Part shown: positions 2,215-62,773 of the stretch, one piece after another | How positions within the stretch are numbered: position 1 is the first letter of the stretch | How the letters are laid out: the number at the start of each line of letters is the position of its first letter | Assembly: GCA_017513005.1 (NCBI GenBank) | Contig: JAFWDM010000124.1 | Coordinates: forward strand, 1-63,309 | From: Lachnospiraceae bacterium | GTDB lineage: Bacteria; Bacillota; Clostridia; Lachnospirales; Lachnospiraceae | Length of the DNA: 63,309 nt | Reading direction: 5' to 3' | Notes under the pieces: generated by a model | The model's database searches: none | Told to the model about the DNA's origin: nothing | Seen by the model: the letters and a program-made list of their open reading frames with translations, nothing else | Translations under genes and position numbers: made by a program

Positions 2215-2275
2215 AGACCAATAGTGATCGCACGGATCGTTTCGCGCTGTACTCTCCCACGATCCTCTTACGAAA

Positions 2276-2304
2276 ACAGCCTGCGGCACACTGCCGCAGG
2301 CTGT
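2276..2304. terminator. Bidirectional terminator-like hairpin between convergent genes
   Basis: A perfect 13-bp stem (ACAGCCTGCGGCA / TGCCGCAGGCTGT) with a 3-base loop sits between the convergent MATE exporter and the DUF805 gene. The downstream T run is short on the plus strand (GGTTCTTT) and is TTTTCG on the minus strand. Confidence 0.6.
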
Positions 2305-2427
2305 CGGTTCTTTATTGCGCAAGGCCCGCAGGCGGGTCCTGCCTTTTTTTACTTCACAGGATATCTGCCTGCCTCGATGCACTTCGATCGCGCACAGGTG
2401 AGGTGAGGCGGGCCGTGCGCTTTTTAC

Positions 2428-3366: not shown

Positions 3367-4566
3367 TCAATCCTGCAGATATACCGGCAGCTCCTTTGCC
3401 CGCGCGACACCGCTGTCGATCGCCGCCTGCGCGACAGCCTTTGCCACGACATCCTTGACGCGCCTGTCCACTGCCGCAGGGAGGATGTATTCCGCATTCA
3501 GCTCCTCGTCGGTGACCATCCCGGCGATCGCTTTTGCCGCCGCGATCTTCATCGCGTCGTTGATGTCGGATGCAAGGACATCAAGTGCGCCGCGGAATAT
3601 CCCCGGGAAGCACAGGACGTTGTTGACCTGGTTGGGGAAATCGGATCTGCCTGTGGAAACCACAGCCGCACCTGCCGCCTTTGCCTCTTCCGGAAGGATC
3701 TCCGGCTCCGGATTGGCACATGCGAAAATGACGGGGTCTTTTGCCATGGACCTCACCATGTCCCCGGTCAATACACCGGGTCCGGAGACACCGATGAAGA
3801 CATCCGCGCCCTTGATGACGTCCGCGAGAGAACCTTTTTCCCGGGCTGCGTTCGTGATCTTTGCCATCTCCTCCTTGATCGGGTTCAGGCCGTCCCGGCC
3901 CTCATAGATCGCGCCCTGCCGGTCGGTCATGATGACGTTCTTTAATCCCATGGCCATCAGAAGGCGGATGATGGCGATCCCGGCAGCGCCTGCGCCGGAA
4001 GTCACGATCTTCACATCCTCCATTTTCTTGCCGACGATCTTCAGAGCATTCATCATGCCTGCGAGCATGATGACCGCCGTCCCGTGCTGGTCATCGTGGA
4101 AGATCGGAATATCGCATTTTTCCTTCAGCTGCTTCTCGATCTCAAAGCACCTGGGTGCGGAGATGTCCTCCAGATTGATCCCGCCGAAGGATCCGGCAAG
4201 GAGGGCCACCGTCTGGACGATCGTATCGACATCCTTGGAACGAATGCAAAGCGGAAAGGCATCGACATCCCCGAACGCTTTGAGCAATACACACTTTCCC
4301 TCCATGACCGGCATACCCGCCTCGGGACCGATATCCCCCAGTCCCAGGATCGCAGTCCCGTCTGTCACGACAGCGACCGTGTTCCAGCGCCGTGTATACT
4401 CATAGGATTTGCTCACATCCTTCTGGATCTCCAGACAGGGCGCTGCCACGCCCGGCGTATAAGCAAGGCTCAGGTCCTCCGCCGTCTCGACGTTCGCCCG
4501 CAGCCCGGTCTCGATCTTCCCTCTCCACTCTCTGTGCTTCTCCAGTGCGGCTTTCGTATAATCCAT
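3367..4566 (-). CDS. Malic enzyme (NAD(P)-dependent, oxaloacetate-decarboxylating, short bacterial form)
   Basis: A 399-aa cytoplasmic enzyme converting malate to pyruvate and CO2 with reduction of NAD(P)+. Visible landmarks are the AYTPGVAAPCLEI motif with the catalytic Tyr36, Lys91 in MEGKCVLLKAFGDVDAFPL, the metal-binding DDQHGT at 158-163, and the dinucleotide-binding GAGAAG at 191-196. Its length matches the short malic enzymes of Bacillus (YtsJ-like) rather than the long MaeB-phosphotransacetylase fusions. The ribosome site AAAAGGAGAATG is optimal. It is probably monocistronic or weakly linked to the downstream DUF805 gene. Confidence 0.95.
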   Translation of the reverse strand: MDYTKAALEKHREWRGKIETGLRANVETAEDLSLAYTPGVAAPCLEIQKDVSKSYEYTRRWNTVAVVTDGTAILGLGDIGPEAGMPVMEGKCVLLKAFGDVDAFPLCIRSKDVDTIVQTVALLAGSFGGINLEDISAPRCFEIEKQLKEKCDIPIFHDDQHGTAVIMLAGMMNALKIVGKKMEDVKIVTSGAGAAGIAIIRLLMAMGLKNVIMTDRQGAIYEGRDGLNPIKEEMAKITNAAREKGSLADVIKGADVFIGVSGPGVLTGDMVRSMAKDPVIFACANPEPEILPEEAKAAGAAVVSTGRSDFPNQVNNVLCFPGIFRGALDVLASDINDAMKIAAAKAIAGMVTDEELNAEYILPAAVDRRVKDVVAKAVAQAAIDSGVARAKELPVYLQD

Positions 4567-4838
4567 TCATTCTCCTTTTAACTTTGTTGCCATGACCGCT
4601 TTATCCTACCTGTTTTTGTGACCGGTTTTCCCCGGGCGGGCAGCTTCCATCTACATCCGGATGCCCGCCTGCGTCCCGTCACGATTTCCGCCCCTGAAGC
4701 AGGCAGCCCCTGCTCATGTGGAAGCAGCCCCCACCCGCGCGAAGCAGTCCGCTTTCACGGAAACGGCATTATTGTACAGAGAATATCCCCCCTGTGCAAG
4801 CAAAAATTCACCGGCAGGAAGCACTTGGTATCCATATG
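4567..4838. other. Intergenic region between malic enzyme and the first family A repeat
   Basis: No credible gene is seen in these 272 bases. The stretch carries the malic enzyme ribosome site at its left edge; I could not identify a convincing -35/-10 pair. Confidence 0.5.
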
Positions 4839-5768: not shown

Positions 5769-5816
5769 GAAATCGGGAATTACAAGTTTGCTTTCGTGGA
5801 ATACAGAAAAATACAG

Positions 5817-5881
5817 GCAGCAGAATCTGCAAAACGCAGGCACATCCGGATCTGGACAGACACCCGGATGGTGTGTTTTTT
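5817..5881 (+). promoter_or_regulatory. Possible attenuator/riboswitch-like leader of larA
   Basis: Within the larA leader, CACATCCGG (5841-5849) pairs with CCGGATGGTGTG (5864-5875, small bulge) and is followed at once by six T residues, the shape of an intrinsic terminator. Just upstream, GCAG (5817-5820), CTGC (5827-5830) and GCAG (5836-5839) can form two mutually exclusive small hairpins. A terminator between promoter and start codon suggests conditional read-through. I do not recognise a known riboswitch class. Confidence 0.4.
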
Positions 5882-5972
5882 GTACCCTTTATCCGGATAC
5901 GGGATCACTGTCCGGAGGGAGTGCTTTGTGTACGCTGCCTGTGTATTTTTGTATTTCCACACAGGAGGAAAA

Positions 5973-7250
5973 ATGAAGACAGTAGAATTTTTTTACGGAC
6001 ACACCACGTACAGTCTGGAAGTGCCGGACGATACGCCGGTCCTGGAAAGCAGGGTCAGCGACCTCAAAAGCGGTCGGCCCGGAAGTGAGATCGTGCGGGA
6101 AGCGATGGAGCATCCCATCGGCAGCCCCCGTCTTTCGGTACTCGCCCGCGGGAAAAAGGACTGCGTGATCATCATCAGCGACCACACGCGCCCGGTCCCC
6201 AGCAAGGACATCCTGCCCAACATGGTCAGAGAACTGCGGGAAGGAAATCCGGAGATCGAGATCAGCTTTCTCGTCGCCACCGGTTTCCACCGCGGCACGA
6301 CGCCGGAGGAACTGATCGACAAGCTCGGCAAGGAGTTCTATGAAGAATTCAAGGACCATATCATCATCCATGACGCCCATAACCCCTCTACGAATGTCAA
6401 GGTCGGCGTCCTGCCCTCCGGTCCCGACTGCATCATCGACAAAGCTGCGATCAACACCTCCCTGCTGCTGGCGGAGGGATTTATCGAGCCCCACTTTTTC
6501 GCCGGCTACTCCGGCGGCCGCAAGAGCATCCTGCCCGGCGTGGCGGACGTCGTCACGGTAATGGGCAACCACTGTTCCAAGTTCATCGACCACCCCAACG
6601 TCCGCACCGGCAGCGTTGACGGCAATCCGATGCACGAAGACATGGTCGCTGCCGCCAGAATGGCAAAGCTCACCTATATCGTCAACGTGATCATCGACGA
6701 GGAGAAAAAGACCGTTGCCGCCTTTGCCGGCCAGTTCGAGGCTGCCCACCGCAAGGGCTGTGAATTCATCTCGCAGTATGTGTCTGTCAAGGCCGTACCT
6801 GCCGACATCGTCATCACCACAAACGGCGGCTATCCCCTGGACCAGAACGCCTACCAGTCCCCCAAGGGCATGTGCGCGGCGGAAGTCTGTGCCAACAAGG
6901 GCGGTGTGATCATCATGCTCGCCTCCTGCTCGGACGGCACCGGCGGAGACGGCTTCTACCACCTGATCGCGGACGAACCCGACCTGGAGACCGCCTATCA
7001 GAAATTTCTCGCGACTCCGCAGGAAAAAACGGCGCCCGACCAGTGGTGCTCCCAGACTCTCGCCCGCATCGCGCGCAAATTCAAGGTCATTTTCGTCGCA
7101 GACCCCGAACAGCAGGCCATGATCGAAGGCCTCAAGCTCACCTACGCTCCCGACCTGCAGACCGCCTACCGCATGGCCCGGCAGATCAAGGGAGAGGACG
7201 CCACCCTCACCTGTATCCCGAACGGGATCTCCGTGGTCGTCACAGACTGA
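5973..7250 (+). CDS. larA: Nickel-dependent lactate racemase LarA (or LarA-like 2-hydroxyacid racemase)
   Basis: A 425-aa protein matching LarA across its length. The N-terminal half has SDHTRPVPSKD (69-79) and G-F-H106-R-G-T; the catalytic centre shows H174 (IEPHFFAGYS), K184 (GGRKSILPG) and H200 (MGNH), the same numbers as the His174, Lys184 and His200 that hold the nickel-pincer nucleotide cofactor in Lactobacillus plantarum LarA. The enzyme interconverts D- and L-lactate or a related 2-hydroxyacid. I chose the ATG at 5973 because it follows an ideal ACAGGAGGAAAA site; the frame is open upstream to 5724 but covers the leader. The cofactor genes larB, larC and larE are not in this window, so the pincer must be made elsewhere or the protein has another substrate. 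Confidence 0.9.
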   Translation: MKTVEFFYGHTTYSLEVPDDTPVLESRVSDLKSGRPGSEIVREAMEHPIGSPRLSVLARGKKDCVIIISDHTRPVPSKDILPNMVRELREGNPEIEISFLVATGFHRGTTPEELIDKLGKEFYEEFKDHIIIHDAHNPSTNVKVGVLPSGPDCIIDKAAINTSLLLAEGFIEPHFFAGYSGGRKSILPGVADVVTVMGNHCSKFIDHPNVRTGSVDGNPMHEDMVAAARMAKLTYIVNVIIDEEKKTVAAFAGQFEAAHRKGCEFISQYVSVKAVPADIVITTNGGYPLDQNAYQSPKGMCAAEVCANKGGVIIMLASCSDGTGGDGFYHLIADEPDLETAYQKFLATPQEKTAPDQWCSQTLARIARKFKVIFVADPEQQAMIEGLKLTYAPDLQTAYRMARQIKGEDATLTCIPNGISVVVTD

Positions 7251-29331: not shown

Positions 29332-29365
29332 CACATGTTCACACGCCGCGGCGTGTGAACATGTG
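29332..29365 (-). terminator. 34-bp perfect palindrome after the Flp pilin gene
   Basis: CACATGTTCACACGCCG (29332-29348) followed by its exact complement gives a 17-bp stem with no loop. In the minus-strand mRNA it lies about 45 bases after the Flp stop and before the DUF5702 gene. No T run follows, so it looks more like an mRNA-stabilising or partial termination hairpin that raises the pilin:downstream ratio. Confidence 0.65.
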
Positions 29366-35802: not shown

Positions 35803-35848
35803 AAAAAACCGGCATCTTCTGTCCGATGGCAGAAGATGCCGGTTTTTT
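35803..35848 (+). terminator. Strong terminator after rubredoxin
   Basis: AAAAAACCGGCATCTTCT pairs exactly with AGAAGATGCCGGTTTTTT across a 10-base loop, followed by T residues. Confidence 0.95.
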
Positions 35849-49175: not shown

Positions 49176-49219
49176 AAGGATGGTTTGCTGATCCATCGGC
49201 GGATCAGCAAACCATCCTT
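49176..49219 (-). terminator. Terminator of cysK
   Basis: On the minus strand, a perfect 19-bp stem (AAGGATGGTTTGCTGATCC and complement) with a 6-base loop is followed by TTTTTATCTTTT. Confidence 0.92.
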
Positions 49220-50472: not shown

Positions 50473-51819
50473 TCACAGATTCGCATCCACAAGCCCGATC
50501 CTGCTCTCCTGGATCTTTCTGTAGAGGGTGGACCGGTTGATGCCCAGGACCTCCGCCGCCTTTTTGACAGACCCCATCTGCCGGATCGTCTTTTCGATCA
50601 GTATATGGTCGACCATCTTATAGGCTTCGTCCAGCGTGACAAATCCGTCAAACTCCAGGCTTGTCTTCCGCAGGCTGCTCTGCACGGCGTCGATACTTGT
50701 CGCCAGCCGGAAATCCTCCGCGGTCAGCTCCTCCCTGTCCGCGGAGATCACGAGCCTCTCCATGATATTGCGGAGCTCGCGCACGTTTCCCGGCCATGTG
50801 CCGGTGCGGATCATCTCGCGCACTTCCTTCGTCAGGACCGTATACTTCATATAGCGCTTATTGAAGTAGTCAATAAAGGACTCTGCGAGGAGCTCCGCAT
50901 CCTCCCCCCGCTGGCGCAGGGGCGGGATCTGGATCGGAAAAACGCAGAGCCGGTAATACAGATCCTGCCTGAAATAATTCTCATCGTGCAGCTGCGCAAG
51001 CGTCAGGTTGGTGGCGGAGATATACCGCACATCCAGATCGATCTCCCGGACGCCTCCCACCCGCATCAGCTTGTTTTCCTGGATGACGCGCAGCAGCTTC
51101 GTCTGCAGGTATTTGGGCATCGTCCCGATCTCGTCCAGAAAGACCGTTCCGCCGTTCGCCGCCTCCAGCAGTCCCTTTTTGCCGCCCTTGCGCGCGCCGG
51201 TAAAGGCGCCGTCCTCGTAACCGAAAAGCTCCGTCTCCATAAGTTCGCCCGGGATCGCGCCGCAGTTGATAGCGATGCAGGGCTTATCCGCCCGCCTGCT
51301 GTTTTTATAGATCGCCCGTGCCACGACCTCCTTTCCCGTGCCCGATTCCCCGGTGATCATGACCGGCACCTCCGTGCCCGCCGCCTGCAGGATCTGCCTG
51401 CGGATCCGCCTGACCGCCTCACTTCTGCCGATCAGTTCTTCATCCGCCGTCCTCTCCAGATGTTCCACATGGCCGTTGTACATCCGGATGAGATAGCTCA
51501 TATCCCGCCCCGTGAGGACCCCGCCCGTGAAATTCCCCTGTTCGTCATACGTGGGCTTTCCCGTATACGAGATCAGTCTGCCGTTGGTATACAGCACATT
51601 GTTGAAGACCGTCTCACGCCGCTGGATCATCTCTTCGATCGTCAGGATCCCCTCCGTATAGTTCTCCTGCTTCAGGAACCTGACATTTTTCCCTATCATC
51701 TCTTCTCTGGAGACAGGCAGCCAGTCATCGATCTTCGCATTTCCCATCGTGATGGTTCCCGATGCGTCAAAAACCAGCACGATCTCATCCACCATATCTA
51801 TCAGATTCTGGATATCCAT
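50473..51819 (-). CDS. Sigma-54-dependent transcriptional activator (PAS-AAA-Fis type)
   Basis: A 448-aa bacterial enhancer-binding protein. Residues 1-115 are a PAS domain (D-E-I-V-L-V-F-D-A-S-G-T-I-T, G-K-P-T-Y-D-E-Q-G-N). The AAA domain from about 133 has Walker A GESGTGKE, the sigma-54 contacting GAFTGA and Walker B G-T-V-F-L-D-E-I-G. The C-terminal Fis helix-turn-helix reads V-L-G-I-N-R-S-T-L-Y-R-K-I. Its upstream neighbour, a CoA-transferase, carries a sigma-54 promoter and rpoN lies 10 kb further. Confidence 0.93.
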   Translation of the reverse strand: MDIQNLIDMVDEIVLVFDASGTITMGNAKIDDWLPVSREEMIGKNVRFLKQENYTEGILTIEEMIQRRETVFNNVLYTNGRLISYTGKPTYDEQGNFTGGVLTGRDMSYLIRMYNGHVEHLERTADEELIGRSEAVRRIRRQILQAAGTEVPVMITGESGTGKEVVARAIYKNSRRADKPCIAINCGAIPGELMETELFGYEDGAFTGARKGGKKGLLEAANGGTVFLDEIGTMPKYLQTKLLRVIQENKLMRVGGVREIDLDVRYISATNLTLAQLHDENYFRQDLYYRLCVFPIQIPPLRQRGEDAELLAESFIDYFNKRYMKYTVLTKEVREMIRTGTWPGNVRELRNIMERLVISADREELTAEDFRLATSIDAVQSSLRKTSLEFDGFVTLDEAYKMVDHILIEKTIRQMGSVKKAAEVLGINRSTLYRKIQESRIGLVDANL

Positions 51820-52187: not shown

Positions 52188-53414
52188 TCAGCCGACCTCT
52201 TCCACCAGTGCGCCGGATGCCTTCAGCGCATCGATCTTCCAGTCAGCATACCCGAGACTTCTCAGGATCTCCCTGGTATCCTCTCCCTTCATGGGAGCCC
52301 GGCCCCTGCCGCTCTCCTCAGGAATAGAGGGGCGCTCCGTAAAGAAGATCGGCGTGCGGACATAGTAGAGGTTTTTCCCGTCCCGCTGCTGTTTTTTGAA
52401 AATATAGTCGTTTGCCCATGCCTGCTCATCCCGGACGACTTCCTCCGCTGTCTGGACGATCTCGAAGGGGATGTCCGCCTCGGTCAGGCGCTCATTCCAC
52501 TCCTCCAGTCCTCTGGCCGCAAAAACGGGTTCAAGCTCCGCGACCATGACCTCGATGTTCCGGAGCATCGCCTCATAGGTATTGAACCGCTCGTCCGTCA
52601 GCAGAAAGTCCGCGTCGAGCGCCTTTGCCAGGCGGGGGAGCTGAGTATAATCCAGCATAGCCAGCTGCAGGAACCTGCCTTCTTTAGTCCTGTAGGTCGT
52701 CGCGACGGCGCTGTTTGTGTGCTTTCTGGAGGCCGGCAGTTCATTGCCGTACTCGACGGCGCCCATCATCCAGCTGATCCCGTAGATCGCGGTGTCGTAC
52801 AGACTCACTGTCACCCGTTCGCCCTCCCCGGTCCTGCTCTGGTTGTACAGCGCCGCCAGGATGCCTGCCGTCAGCGCCAGGCCGGCATAATTGTCGCCGA
52901 ACCCCGAGACGGGGACGGCCGGAGAGGTCCCCTTCTCCATCACGGAACTGGCGACCCCGCCCCTGGAGAAAAATGCCGTGTAGTCGAAGCCGGGCTTATC
53001 CTTCAGCGGTCCCTTCTCCCCGTAGCCCAGGATCGAGGCATGGATCAGCCTCGGGAATTCCTTATGCAGGGTCTCGTAGTCCAGTCCCATTTTTTTCAGG
53101 GCCTGGACCCGGTTGTTCGTCAGGAAAATATCCGCTGTAGCCAGAAGTTTTTTCAGGATCTCCATTGCCTCGGGATTCTTCAGGTTGAGGCAGAGTCCCT
53201 TTTTCAGAAAGTTCATCACATCATAGCCTGTGTAATATCCCTCCTCCTCATAGGCAGGATAATTACAGCTGACGGAAAAGGGCTTGAACCCGTCGCCTCT
53301 CGGCGGCTCGATCTTGATGACCTCCGCCCCCATCCCGGCCAGGATCCGCCCGGCGGAGGGTGCCGCGATAAATGTGGTCAGGTCTACTACTCTTACTCCT
53401 TCCAGTTGTGCCAT
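52188..53414 (-). CDS. Family III CoA-transferase (CaiB/BaiF type)
   Basis: A 408-aa enzyme. It opens with L-E-G-V-R-V-V-D-L-T-T-F-I-A-A-P and carries the CoA-binding pattern G-M-G-A-E-V-I-K-I-E-P-P-R-G-D and a centre of K-P-G-F-D-Y-T-A-F-F-S-R-G-G with the family's catalytic Asp in F-D. It moves CoA between carboxylic acids; the substrate is not readable. I chose the ATG at 53414 (AAAGGAG at 9 bases) over 53519, because the sigma-54 promoter ends at 53503 and the upstream part would lie before transcription. Confidence 0.9.
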   Translation of the reverse strand: MAQLEGVRVVDLTTFIAAPSAGRILAGMGAEVIKIEPPRGDGFKPFSVSCNYPAYEEEGYYTGYDVMNFLKKGLCLNLKNPEAMEILKKLLATADIFLTNNRVQALKKMGLDYETLHKEFPRLIHASILGYGEKGPLKDKPGFDYTAFFSRGGVASSVMEKGTSPAVPVSGFGDNYAGLALTAGILAALYNQSRTGEGERVTVSLYDTAIYGISWMMGAVEYGNELPASRKHTNSAVATTYRTKEGRFLQLAMLDYTQLPRLAKALDADFLLTDERFNTYEAMLRNIEVMVAELEPVFAARGLEEWNERLTEADIPFEIVQTAEEVVRDEQAWANDYIFKKQQRDGKNLYYVRTPIFFTERPSIPEESGRGRAPMKGEDTREILRSLGYADWKIDALKASGALVEEVG

Positions 53415-53502
53415 ATCGTTCATCTCCTTTTCAACTTTTTGCTGTCCCGGCGTATACCGCCCGGAACAGAACCACCTGTAACAAACGCACAGCTGATTTA
53501 AC

Positions 53503-53519
53503 AGCAACTTTCGTGCCAA
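53503..53519 (-). promoter_or_regulatory. Sigma-54 promoter of the CoA-transferase gene
   Basis: On the minus strand, TTGGCAC (53513-53519) then GAAAG and TTGCT (53503-53507), so GG and GC are separated by exactly ten bases, the sigma-54 standard. The start of transcription would be near 53492. Confidence 0.9.
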
Positions 53520-53674
53520 ACTGTCGAAAAGGAAAAAATGCCGTATTTATGCCCCCTTCCGGGCCGGACTTCCTCCGCGGGCGTCCCGAAAATGCATCCG
53601 GTGTCGCATTTACAGGACAGAGGCGGCCGGGCATGCAGCAACCCACTCCATCCTCATGTTGGAGCAGGTCCCAG

Positions 53675-53718
53675 GCCCTTTCACCCACGGCAAGCATGCT
53701 TGCCGTGGGTGAAAGGGC
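53675..53718. promoter_or_regulatory. 44-bp perfect palindrome between the CoA-transferase and pgi
   Basis: GCCCTTTCACCCACGGCAAG, CATG, and the exact complement. Its centre is about 180 bases before the -24 element, a normal distance for an activator-binding site, and about 85 bases before the pgi -35. A plus-strand terminator is possible (GGGCTTTT) but nothing converges on it. Confidence 0.6.
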
Positions 53719-53780
53719 TTTTGACCCTGCTATCTATTCATATAAAATCATATAAAAAAGCCTCGTCAGTGCCGAAAAAC

Positions 53781-53810
53781 TGGACAATATACACAAGAAT
53801 ACTCTATAAT
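53781..53810 (+). promoter_or_regulatory. Sigma-A promoter of pgi
   Basis: TGGACA (53781-53786), 18 bases, perfect TATAAT (53805-53810). Confidence 0.75.
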
Positions 53811-53932
53811 TATCTTTACATGTTTTTCATGCGGTAAACATTTTGATGTTTTATCGTCATGATCAGCGGCAGGACCTGATCATAAAATCATTAATCATTT
53901 CACACCCTTATAGATAAAGGAGGATTTTCAGA

Positions 53933-55516
53933 ATGATCGACTGGAAAAACCTTGACAAACTGGCTGCCTATGACAAATTTCTCGCTCTGAAAGGCAGAGT
54001 GAATCTCGCGGAAGCCATGAGCGGCGAAAACGGCGCTGTCCGCGTCGCAAAATACAGTGTTCCCATGGCCTGCGGAATGAAATACAATTTCGCGGCAAAG
54101 GCTGTCGACGACGACGTGCTCTCTGTCCTGGCGGACCTGGCAAAGGAGCAGCAGCTGATCGCCAAGTATCAGGAACTGCTGGACGGTGCCATGGTCAACA
54201 CCGGTGAGAAGCGCCTGGTTCTCCATCAACTCTGCCGCGGTCAGCTGGGCAAAGATGTCCTGGCGGACGGCGTGAACAAGCGCGATTTCTATGTGTCCCA
54301 GCAGAATAAGGTCGCAGCCTTCGCGAACAAAGTGCACGCGGGCGAGATCACAAACGCGGACGGTGAGAAATTCACCACGGTCGTCCAGATCGGCATCGGC
54401 GGCAGTGACCTGGGTCCCCGCGCGGTCTACATCGCGCTCGAAAACTGGGCGAGACAGAACGATACGCTGAAGATGGAGGCGCGTTTTATCAGCAACGTCG
54501 ACCCCGACGATGCGGCGGCGGTCCTGAAGTCCGTCGATATCCCCCACTCCCTCTTCATCGTCGTCTCCAAGTCCGGGACGACCCTGGAGACCCTGACCAA
54601 CGAGTCCTTCGTCAGGAACGCGCTCCGCGAAGCCGGCGTGGATCCCTCCAAGCACATGCTGGCCGTTACCAGCGAGACCTCCCCCATGGCATCCAGTACC
54701 GATTACCTGGCAGCCTTCTTCATGGATGATTACATCGGCGGCCGCTACTCCGCCTCCTCCTGCGTGGGCGGCGCGGTCCTCTCCCTCGCCTTCGGGCCGG
54801 ATATCTTCGCGCGCTTCCTCAACGGCGCCGCAGAAACCGACAAGGCATCCCTGAACCCCGACATCATGCAGAACGCCGCTCTGCTCGACGCCCTGATCGG
54901 CGTCTACGAGCGCAACGTCCTGGGCTATATGTGCACCGCTGTCCTGCCCTATTCACAGGCACTCAGCCGCTTCCCGGCCCACCTGCAGCAGCTCGACATG
55001 GAGTCCAACGGCAAGACCGTCAACCGCTTCGGCGAACCCGTCAGCTACCTGACCGGACCCGTCCTCTTCGGTGAGCCTGGCACCAACGGCCAGCACTCCT
55101 TCTACCAGCTCCTGCACCAGGGTGCAAACATCGTCCCCATGCAGTTCATAGGTTTCAAGAACAGCCAGATCGGCATGGACATCGACATCCAGGGCAGCAC
55201 CAGCCAGAAAAAGCTCTGCGCGAACGTCGTCGCCCAGATCATGGCTTTTGCCTGCGGCAAAGAAGACGAAGATCCCAACAAGGCTTTCGCCGGCAGCCGT
55301 CCCTCCAGTATCATCATCGCCGACCAGCTCAACCCCGAGAGCCTGGGCGCCCTGCTCGCCCACTTCGAGAACAAGGTCATGTTCCAGGGCTTTCTCTGGA
55401 ACGTTAACAGCTTCGATCAGGAAGGCGTCCAGCTCGGCAAGCTTCTCGCCAAACGGGTCCTGGCCCACGAGACGGACGGCGGCCTGAAGGCACTCGCCGA
55501 CCTCTTTGAAATCTGA
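53933..55516 (+). CDS. pgi: Glucose-6-phosphate isomerase
   Basis: A 527-aa enzyme of glycolysis interconverting glucose 6-phosphate and fructose 6-phosphate. It shows G-G-S-D-L-G-P, the S-K-S-G-T-T-L-E-T-L substrate loop (about 204-213), G-E-P-G-T-N-G-Q-H-S-F and the C-terminal K-V-M-F-Q-G-F-L-W-N-V-N-S-F-D-Q-x-G-V-Q-L-G-K signature. The ribosome site is TAAAGGAGGATTTTC. The promoter is 150 bases upstream. Confidence 0.97.
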   Translation: MIDWKNLDKLAAYDKFLALKGRVNLAEAMSGENGAVRVAKYSVPMACGMKYNFAAKAVDDDVLSVLADLAKEQQLIAKYQELLDGAMVNTGEKRLVLHQLCRGQLGKDVLADGVNKRDFYVSQQNKVAAFANKVHAGEITNADGEKFTTVVQIGIGGSDLGPRAVYIALENWARQNDTLKMEARFISNVDPDDAAAVLKSVDIPHSLFIVVSKSGTTLETLTNESFVRNALREAGVDPSKHMLAVTSETSPMASSTDYLAAFFMDDYIGGRYSASSCVGGAVLSLAFGPDIFARFLNGAAETDKASLNPDIMQNAALLDALIGVYERNVLGYMCTAVLPYSQALSRFPAHLQQLDMESNGKTVNRFGEPVSYLTGPVLFGEPGTNGQHSFYQLLHQGANIVPMQFIGFKNSQIGMDIDIQGSTSQKKLCANVVAQIMAFACGKEDEDPNKAFAGSRPSSIIIADQLNPESLGALLAHFENKVMFQGFLWNVNSFDQEGVQLGKLLAKRVLAHETDGGLKALADLFEI

Positions 55517-61444: not shown

Positions 61445-62773
61445 TTACAGACAGGCGCGCAGGCGGGAGTCCGGGATTCCCATCTGCTGACGGTATTTTG
61501 CGACCGTGCGCCGGGAAATACGCATCCCTTCCTCCTTGAGGATCTTCGCGATCCTGTCGTCGCTCAGCGGCCTGGCGCGGTCCTCCTCCCTGACGATCTC
61601 TCCGATCCTCTTTCTCACGACATCCGCGGAAGCATCCGTCTTTTCAGACGCGGCGCCGGAAAAAAGATCCCGCAGCAGGACCGGCTGCCTGTACTGCAGA
61701 TACTTGTTCCTGACCGCCCGGCTGACCGTGGAGGTACTGATCTCCAGCTCCTCCGCGACTTTGTCCATCGTCATCGGCCGCAGTTCTTTTCCGTTCAGAA
61801 AATAGTCCGCCTGTTCGTCGAGGATCGTCTCGACGATCCTGATGATCGTCGAGCGCCTGCGCTCGACTGAATTCACGATGAGGCGGGCCCGCTCCAGCTT
61901 CCCCCTGAAGTACTCCCGCAGTTCGGGATCGGAAGCAGTCTGCATCATGTGGATATAGTAATCGTTGAATTTATACTCCCCCATCCAGCTGTCATTGAGC
62001 GTGACGACCCATTTGTCATTTTCACGCCGGGCCAGAATGTCCGGTACTATGTACTCCGTCCCCTCCTTCTGTGTATTCATGAGGGGGCGCGGGTTCAGCG
62101 CAGCGATCTTCCGGATGCAGGAGCGGCATTTTGCCGTCGAGATCCCGAGGGCGCGGGTGACTGTGCTCAGATTACCGCGGAGAAGATCCGGCAGATAGTC
62201 CCTTATGACGCTTCGAAGGACGTCGTCCTCCTCGCCCGCCGTCTCCAGCTGCCTGAGGAGGCACTCGGAAATATCCTCTGAAAAAACACCTGCCGGCTCG
62301 AGCTTTCGCAGGTCTGACAGGCATTTCCGTACCATTTCCTCCGGACAGCCATAGGCCCCGGCGATCTCCGCAGGTTCGTAAGGAAAAAATCCCCTGTCGT
62401 CCAGACACTCGATCAGATAGTCGATCAGGTCCCACTCCTGCTGCGTATAGCTCCGGATATTCAGCTGCCCTTTGATCTGCTCACGAAGCGGGGACGGCTC
62501 TCTGGCCCGGATATCTCCCCTGCGGTCCGCATCCTCATCCTCCCATTGGATATAGTGATCCCTGTAGGAGCTGGCATTCTCATAATGCCCTTCCAGCGAA
62601 TCCACGATCTCCGACTGGCGATCCCTCCGGCACTCCAGAAGGGGATTCTGCATATATTCCTCGCTCAGGAATTCATCCAGTTCCTGATTGGTAAATGCCA
62701 GGATCTGCAGGGACTGCCGCTGGTCGACGGACAGAATCTGCTGCTGGCTCTGGGAGATATTCTGCTGCAGCAT
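61445..62773 (-). CDS. rpoN: RNA polymerase sigma-54 factor
   Basis: A 442-aa RpoN. The N-terminal Gln-rich activator region (QQNISQSQQQILS) is followed by the core-binding domain and the DNA-binding domain with the RpoN box (S-R-R-T-V-A-K-Y-R, residues about 424-432) and a helix-turn-helix (V-A-E-E-L-E-I-S-T-S-T-V-S-R). It supplies the sigma for the CoA-transferase promoter. The ribosome site is GAGAGGTCCCT. Confidence 0.96.
   Translation of the reverse strand: MLQQNISQSQQQILSVDQRQSLQILAFTNQELDEFLSEEYMQNPLLECRRDRQSEIVDSLEGHYENASSYRDHYIQWEDEDADRRGDIRAREPSPLREQIKGQLNIRSYTQQEWDLIDYLIECLDDRGFFPYEPAEIAGAYGCPEEMVRKCLSDLRKLEPAGVFSEDISECLLRQLETAGEEDDVLRSVIRDYLPDLLRGNLSTVTRALGISTAKCRSCIRKIAALNPRPLMNTQKEGTEYIVPDILARRENDKWVVTLNDSWMGEYKFNDYYIHMMQTASDPELREYFRGKLERARLIVNSVERRRSTIIRIVETILDEQADYFLNGKELRPMTMDKVAEELEISTSTVSRAVRNKYLQYRQPVLLRDLFSGAASEKTDASADVVRKRIGEIVREEDRARPLSDDRIAKILKEEGMRISRRTVAKYRQQMGIPDSRLRACL

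Follow-up and report, generated by a model that had tools for sequence, protein, structure and literature searches.

In C. difficile, the hadAIBC-acdB-etfBA operon is predicted to be controlled by LeuR, itself predicted to be a sigma-54 activator of leucine reduction, according to the accessible part of PMC6615313. The accessible part of PMC7438776 names LeuR as CD0402 and describes hadA as strongly down in a C. difficile sigL mutant. PMC6615313, again in its accessible part, gives TGT-N10-12-ACA sites for 15 activator groups, with LeuR placed among the groups that have other motifs. The other described system relevant here is Clostridiales-1 (RF01699), considered probably an RNA and probably not cis-regulatory in the accessible part of Weinberg et al. 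2010 (PMC2864571).

The window (i.e. the whole 63,309-nucleotide stretch of Lachnospiraceae DNA analysed here) contains a locus that resembles the first of these systems and, next to it, a sequence that resembles the second. Our best explanation, which we hold to be quite likely, is that a LeuR/HadA-like sigma-54 module lies beside an unrelated, truncated Clostridiales-1 element, of which a conspicuous palindrome is a part. The features of the locus are as follows.

50473..51819, minus strand: PAS-AAA-Fis sigma-54 activator, LeuR-like (domains, GAFTGA, best matches adjoining hadA, tree)
52188..53414, minus strand: family III CoA-transferase, HadA-related (PF02515, 293 bits; identity to HadA proteins; tree)
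53503..53519, minus strand: -24/-12 (sigma-54) promoter TTGGCACGAAAGTTGCT (consensus match; counterparts in loci L013 and L014)
53590..53619, no strand assigned: candidate activator binding region with overlapping dyads (dyads partly common to L013 and L014)
53621..53735, minus strand: truncated Clostridiales-1 (RF01699) element (45.0 bits; BLAST match to the copy in genome G076)
53675..53718, no strand assigned: 44-bp perfect palindrome, most likely the long hairpin of the Clostridiales-1 element
53933..55516, plus strand: pgi, divergent neighbour (NCBIfam PRK14095, 779 bits against a cut-off of 703)
61445..62773, minus strand: rpoN, encoding sigma-54 (three sigma-54 domains)

The palindrome, the -24/-12 site and the genes named in the first-pass annotation are all real, and their coordinates are correct. 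The same annotation placed rpoN 10 kb away; the gene is indeed present, with all three sigma-54 domains, and its distance from the CoA-transferase start is 8 kb. The open frame of the CoA-transferase begins at TTG 53519, a codon we rejected as the start because it sits within the promoter. The likely start is ATG 53414, which is preceded by AGGAG and agrees with both the promoter and the homologues; the -24/-12 site lies 105 bp ahead of it. The activator gene starts 368 bp past the CoA-transferase stop codon, on the same strand. On the other side, pgi has a sigma-70-like promoter of its own at 53781-53810 (a promoter-like site scoring 11 of 12), and an intrinsic terminator was rejected, as no terminator-like site with a T-run was found at 53300-54100.

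The site TTGGCACGAAAGTTGCT (53519-53503, minus strand) agrees with the sigma-54 consensus at each of its specified positions. The pattern TGGCACN5TTGCW has one zero-mismatch match in the window, and three matches when up to one mismatch is allowed, compared to 1.85 expected. When the 518-bp intergenic stretch was dinucleotide-shuffled 5000 times, an exact match to a wider -24/-12 consensus arose on the minus strand, the only one considered, in three of the shuffles. Genome-wide, this wider consensus is not enriched, with four matches versus two for a reversed control pattern. Hence, the site alone is unconvincing, and the case for it rests on its place and its conservation.

To assess conservation, we searched 61 genomes for the CoA-transferase: the window's own, 36 others of the genus and 24 of the order. 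Matches with E at most 1e-100 were seen in three of these, namely the window's own genome and two of the same genus, G009 and G028, apparently the source of loci L013 and L014. The module of CoA-transferase plus activator is thus present in 3 of the 37 genus genomes searched. In both L013 and L014, the same activator follows the CoA-transferase on the same strand, with identities of 87% and 73%, and of 85% and 75%, to the window's proteins. Counterparts of the -24/-12 site, GTGGCACGGTTTTTGCT and TTGGCACGCTTTTTGCT, lie 69 and 70 bp ahead of the start in L013 and L014, the former being off consensus at its first base; only these two orthologous loci served for the promoter and upstream comparison. 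The combination of sigma-54, activator and CoA-transferase proposed earlier for this locus is thus supported by its conservation in two same-genus loci, and also by the kinship of the activator described below. The link that the first-pass annotation drew between the palindrome and pgi fared less well, as pgi is not adjacent to the CoA-transferase in either L013 or L014. L013 carries a further -24/-12 site, TTGGCACGTTTTTTGCT, between the CoA-transferase and the activator, ahead of the latter (4102-4722), as well as a TGTC-N10-AACA near-dyad in the same stretch, suggesting, from these motifs, that the activator may be under separate sigma-54 control in that genome.

The enzyme belongs to CoA-transferase family III, as previously proposed (PF02515, 293 bits); it reaches no NCBIfam equivalog cut-off. 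Searching with it yielded 36 loci. In 17 of these, the protein is 46-50% identical and is encoded at hadA of a had operon or beside a HadA-type activator. Another 14, besides L013 and L014, are 62-68% identical, and three are 33-39% identical. In a tree of 29 rows, the window enzyme falls within the 62-68% group, which is sister to the HadA group. Three members of the 62-68% group (L017, L022 and L038) adjoin hadBC, hadI or acdB genes. In the window, no dehydratase, activase or acyl-CoA dehydrogenase gene adjoins the CoA-transferase or the activator. The genome has three HGD-D matches, including a tandem pair on contig C23 that shares 37% and 42% identity with HadB and HadC. A gene for a LarA-type racemase lies 1.2 kb downstream of this pair (L061, G000 C23 9554-10834), and no consensus -24/-12 match was found on contig C23. 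A second LarA-type lactate racemase homologue is encoded in the window itself (5814-7250, plus strand).

The neighbouring regulator was described in the first-pass annotation as a PAS-AAA-Fis activator, and its domains bear this out: Sigma54_activat scores 217 bits, the translation of the AAA domain includes GAFTGA, and the Fis-type HTH scores 38 bits. The PAS scores are weak, with PAS_4 above its cut-off at 25.0 bits and PAS_9 and PAS just below theirs. PF00158 has six matches in the genome, of which two are strong (the window's and one on contig C95) and the other four score 29-36 bits. Kinship between the two strong ones was considered and rejected, since the tree places the C95 protein apart. 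The latter, the genome's sole other strong sigma-54 activator (L062, G000 C95, 1-2436), is divergent to a partly visible gene whose visible part matches the MFE-2 hydratase N-terminal domain, and a consensus -24/-12 site lies between the pair.

We also searched for the activator in six genomes, counting hits at E at most 1e-60. Three of these genomes have hadA operons (C. difficile, C. tagluense and isolate INTA.CYC.035), with 15, 10 and 4 hits, respectively, and in all three the best match adjoins hadA, as judged by sequence overlap with the hadA loci. In C. difficile, the hadA-adjacent activator, which we took for LeuR by its position, scores 428 bits, compared to 266 bits for the next match. 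In a tree of 22 activators, which lacks the C. difficile row and two others (L136-L138), the window protein, its two same-genus counterparts and four HadA-adjacent activators form a group with support of 100/99. From sequence comparison, then, we can establish the gene content, promoter, conservation and kinship of the module. We regard it as LeuR/HadA-like, without adjoining dehydratase genes, and as a sound but fairly ordinary sigma-54 switch.

Two overlapping dyads are found between the promoter and the palindrome: TGC-N10-GCA within 53590-53611 and TGTC-N10-GACA at 53602-53619. The latter occurs 82, 94 and 195 bp upstream of the -24 element in the window, L013 and L014, respectively. In shuffled sequence, it arose at rates of 0.25%, 0.43% and 0.55% in the three regions and in all three at once in 0 of 4000 rounds, figures that are flattering because the dyads were chosen after looking. 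The TGC-N10-GCA dyad is also present in L014 and is absent from L013. TGCA-N-TGCA dyads were seen 86-188 bp ahead of the -24 element in all six hadA loci examined, a loose pattern without a chance control. TGTC-N10-GACA belongs to the TGT/ACA type, in which the spacer is 10-12 bp, and this is not the motif class given for LeuR in the accessible part of PMC6615313. On the strength of these motifs, 53590-53619 is the likelier candidate for the activator binding region, ahead of the palindrome, with neither dyad preferred over the other.

Taken together, the observations suggest the following scheme. The PAS-AAA-Fis activator would bind a dyad at about 53590-53619 and loop to sigma-54 RNA polymerase at 53519-53503. 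This would switch on the HadA-type CoA-transferase, in response to a presumed inducer, and the enzyme may then load CoA onto a 2-hydroxy acid, its putative substrate. Dehydratase genes elsewhere, on contig C23, could supply the next step. Upstream, the palindrome would be the long hairpin of a truncated Clostridiales-1 element located between the CoA-transferase and pgi, with arms made exactly complementary at a later time, probably by template switching (i.e. homogenisation of an inverted repeat).

The palindrome (53675-53718) consists of two 22-bp arms with no loop, as first reported, and is the longest perfect inverted repeat in a scan of the window with loops of 0-8. It extends imperfectly to 53663-53731, and the region 53640-53760, folded as RNA, gives -57.9 kcal/mol (z -8.8). 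Further perfect inverted repeats in the window, with arms of 17-19 bp, lie at 35803-35848 (whose ends carry runs of A and T, as in a bidirectional terminator), 49176-49219 and 29332-29365 (overlapping the start of an open frame).

No known RNA family was found in the window at Rfam gathering level, and the link to RF01699 emerged solely through full-length relatives and a permissive scan. Positions 53735-53621 (minus strand) match RF01699 with 45.0 bits (E 8.4e-9), under the gathering score of 48, and for this reason we call the element a remnant rather than a member. The alignment shows a complete head and long hairpin, with hardly anything left of hairpins two and three. A second match in the window, at 2225-2390 (minus strand), scores 34.3 bits, likewise below the gathering score. 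MicroRNA names returned by the permissive scan were far below their own gathering scores, and we attribute them to chance similarity with a perfect hairpin. The arm GCAGGGTCAAAAGCCC is found elsewhere, and readings of the repeat as having MITE-like ends or as a shared mRNA leader were dropped after Rfam named the longer copies; a strict arm pattern, which proved too strict, recovered two copies only, both in the window's own genome.

We then examined the distribution of the element. When a 76-bp stretch around the palindrome was used as a BLAST query, three of the 62 genus genomes, among them that of the window, proved to have related sequence. One match, G076:C17:46020-46094 (E 9.8e-9), is a full RF01699 copy of 127.5 bits. 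A covariance model built from four copies had matches in 12 of the 62 genomes, with up to 13 in one. Of eight loci scanned with Rfam, seven carry RF01699 above the gathering score (six at 94-137 bits), and the eighth, L099, reaches 27.3 bits. Across the genus, RF01699 matches occur in at least 31 of 62 genomes (27 above the cut-off), with up to 36 copies in one, counts that are lower bounds because stricter filters were used. None was found in 14 control genomes. The window's own genome has seven matches, five of them below the cut-off, which indicates that decay of RF01699 is common there. In three aligned relatives, the hairpin arms are imperfect, the longest perfect arms being 6-8 bp versus 22 bp in the window. 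Most likely, then, the palindrome is a decayed Clostridiales-1 copy and not an enhancer.

The first-pass annotation had read the palindrome as the activator's enhancer, and one could add that such a site was perhaps taken over from an inserted element. The geometry is favourable: the palindrome lies 156-199 bp upstream of the -24 element, within the 100-250 bp of most UAS sites in the accessible part of PMC6615313, a range that excludes the nearer dyad at 53602-53619 (82 bp), and its arms are perfect. However, when the same palindrome was sought ahead of the relatives' CoA-transferase genes, it was absent from the orthologous promoters of both L013 and L014, where RF01699 likewise has no match upstream of the CoA-transferase (the sole match in the scan of these loci, of 28 bits and cut by the L013 contig edge, is more than 2.7 kb away). 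Homologous copies, belonging to the dispersed Clostridiales-1 family, are located at unrelated genes. Moreover, the 22-bp arms are unlike the TGT-N10-12-ACA sites of the 15 activator groups, as given in that part of the paper, and the palindrome contains neither of the nearer, partly shared dyads. These data make an enhancer role very improbable. It is tempting to take so large and perfect a palindrome near a sigma-54 promoter for a control site, and here that reading gives way to one of a probable repeat remnant. Only slightly better are the prospects that the remnant still functions as a Clostridiales-1 RNA, with its transcript coming from the minus strand. Its head and long hairpin are intact, Rfam files RF01699 as an sRNA gene, and the accessible description of the family (PMC2864571) favours an RNA; yet the loss of most of the second and third hairpins, the score below gathering and the sub-threshold state of most matches in this genome make it unlikely.

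A more serious alternative concerns the module itself, which could be sigma-54 controlled and yet encode a CoA-transferase that acts on an acid other than a 2-hydroxy acid, such that the kinship with LeuR would be one of the regulator only. The window enzyme belongs to the sister group of HadA, many members of that group have no had genes nearby, and in the window the failure to reach an NCBIfam equivalog cut-off goes along with a lack of had genes alongside. The sister-group loci that do adjoin hadBC, hadI or acdB argue the other way, as does the fact that the window activator is closest to HadA-adjacent activators. On balance, we consider this alternative rather unlikely, and continue to favour a LeuR/HadA-like module next to an unrelated element.

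The placement of full-length Clostridiales-1 copies provides a further line of inquiry. Twenty of the 36 copies in genome G015 were fetched and compared with co-directional frames of 100 codons or more, a copy being counted if it started within 20 nt of the stop codon. Thirteen of the 20 copies start near such a stop codon, compared to 8.1% of random places. We extended the analysis, with a limit of 12 nt, to 60 copies (L155-L214) from eight same-genus genomes, taken from the top of the RF01699 genus list. The 5' end lies at a co-directional stop in 29 of the 60, a count that covers one genus, includes related copies from the same genome and probably some spurious frames, versus 3.4% at random places outside the element; for the other end on the other strand, the count is 8 of 60. 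The effect is strongest in G015 (13/20) and weak in G010 (3/11) and G008 (2/8). Ten frames, chosen for recognisable ends, were identified by NCBIfam. Six are accounted for by argS, ychF and groEL, each found in two genomes, and four by single instances of gyrB, pheS, hypE and a gene for PRPP synthetase. Every one ends within three positions of the family profile end, and hence these stops are natural. The window's own genome supplied three of these ten frames (L128, L129 and L131). In addition, the closing stem runs outward a mean of 3.6 pairs further than the Rfam model, compared to 1.15 when flanks are swapped between copies.

These observations raise the possibility, which we put forward tentatively and at somewhat less than even chances, that Clostridiales-1 in this genus is a gene-end element. 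Many copies would start on stop codons, those of housekeeping genes included, with the closing stem pairing into the gene end, and the element would either act on mRNA 3' ends or spread by targeting them; the palindrome in the window would then be a stray, decayed copy that ended up between pgi and a sigma-54 promoter. In enterobacteria, some mobile repeats are known to overlap with reading frames (PMC2759123, accessible part), and such placement thus has a precedent. Among papers judged by title and the start of the abstract, we found none devoted to the function or placement of Clostridiales-1/RF01699. For a described RNA family of unknown function, a testable, non-random placement at stop codons, essential genes included, may outweigh the module in importance.

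How, then, does the locus compare with the known systems? The element shares its head, long hairpin and spacing with Clostridiales-1 RNA (RF01699), and differs from it in its truncated second and third hairpins and a score below 48. PrdR, the proline reductase activator, has the same domain order as the window activator and is its best NCBIfam match, but the score of 357.7 bits to NF041552 is under half of the 795-bit cut-off and the window locus has no prd genes, and we rejected this identity. With respect to LeuR of C. difficile, the window activator is 45% identical and shorter (448 versus about 548 amino acids), and the candidate dyads differ. The CoA-transferase is only 50% identical to C. 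difficile HadA and falls in the sister group, and hadI, hadB, hadC, acdB and etfBA, which accompany hadA in C. difficile, are absent from its side in the window. What is added, then, is a stripped-down LeuR/HadA-like module, in which the CoA-transferase and activator stand apart from dehydratase genes. Its likeness to the LeuR, sigma-54 and hadAIBC-acdB-etfBA system, as described in the accessible parts of PMC6615313 and PMC7438776, lies in a HadA-related CoA-transferase, a -24/-12 promoter and a LeuR-like PAS-AAA-Fis activator nearby.
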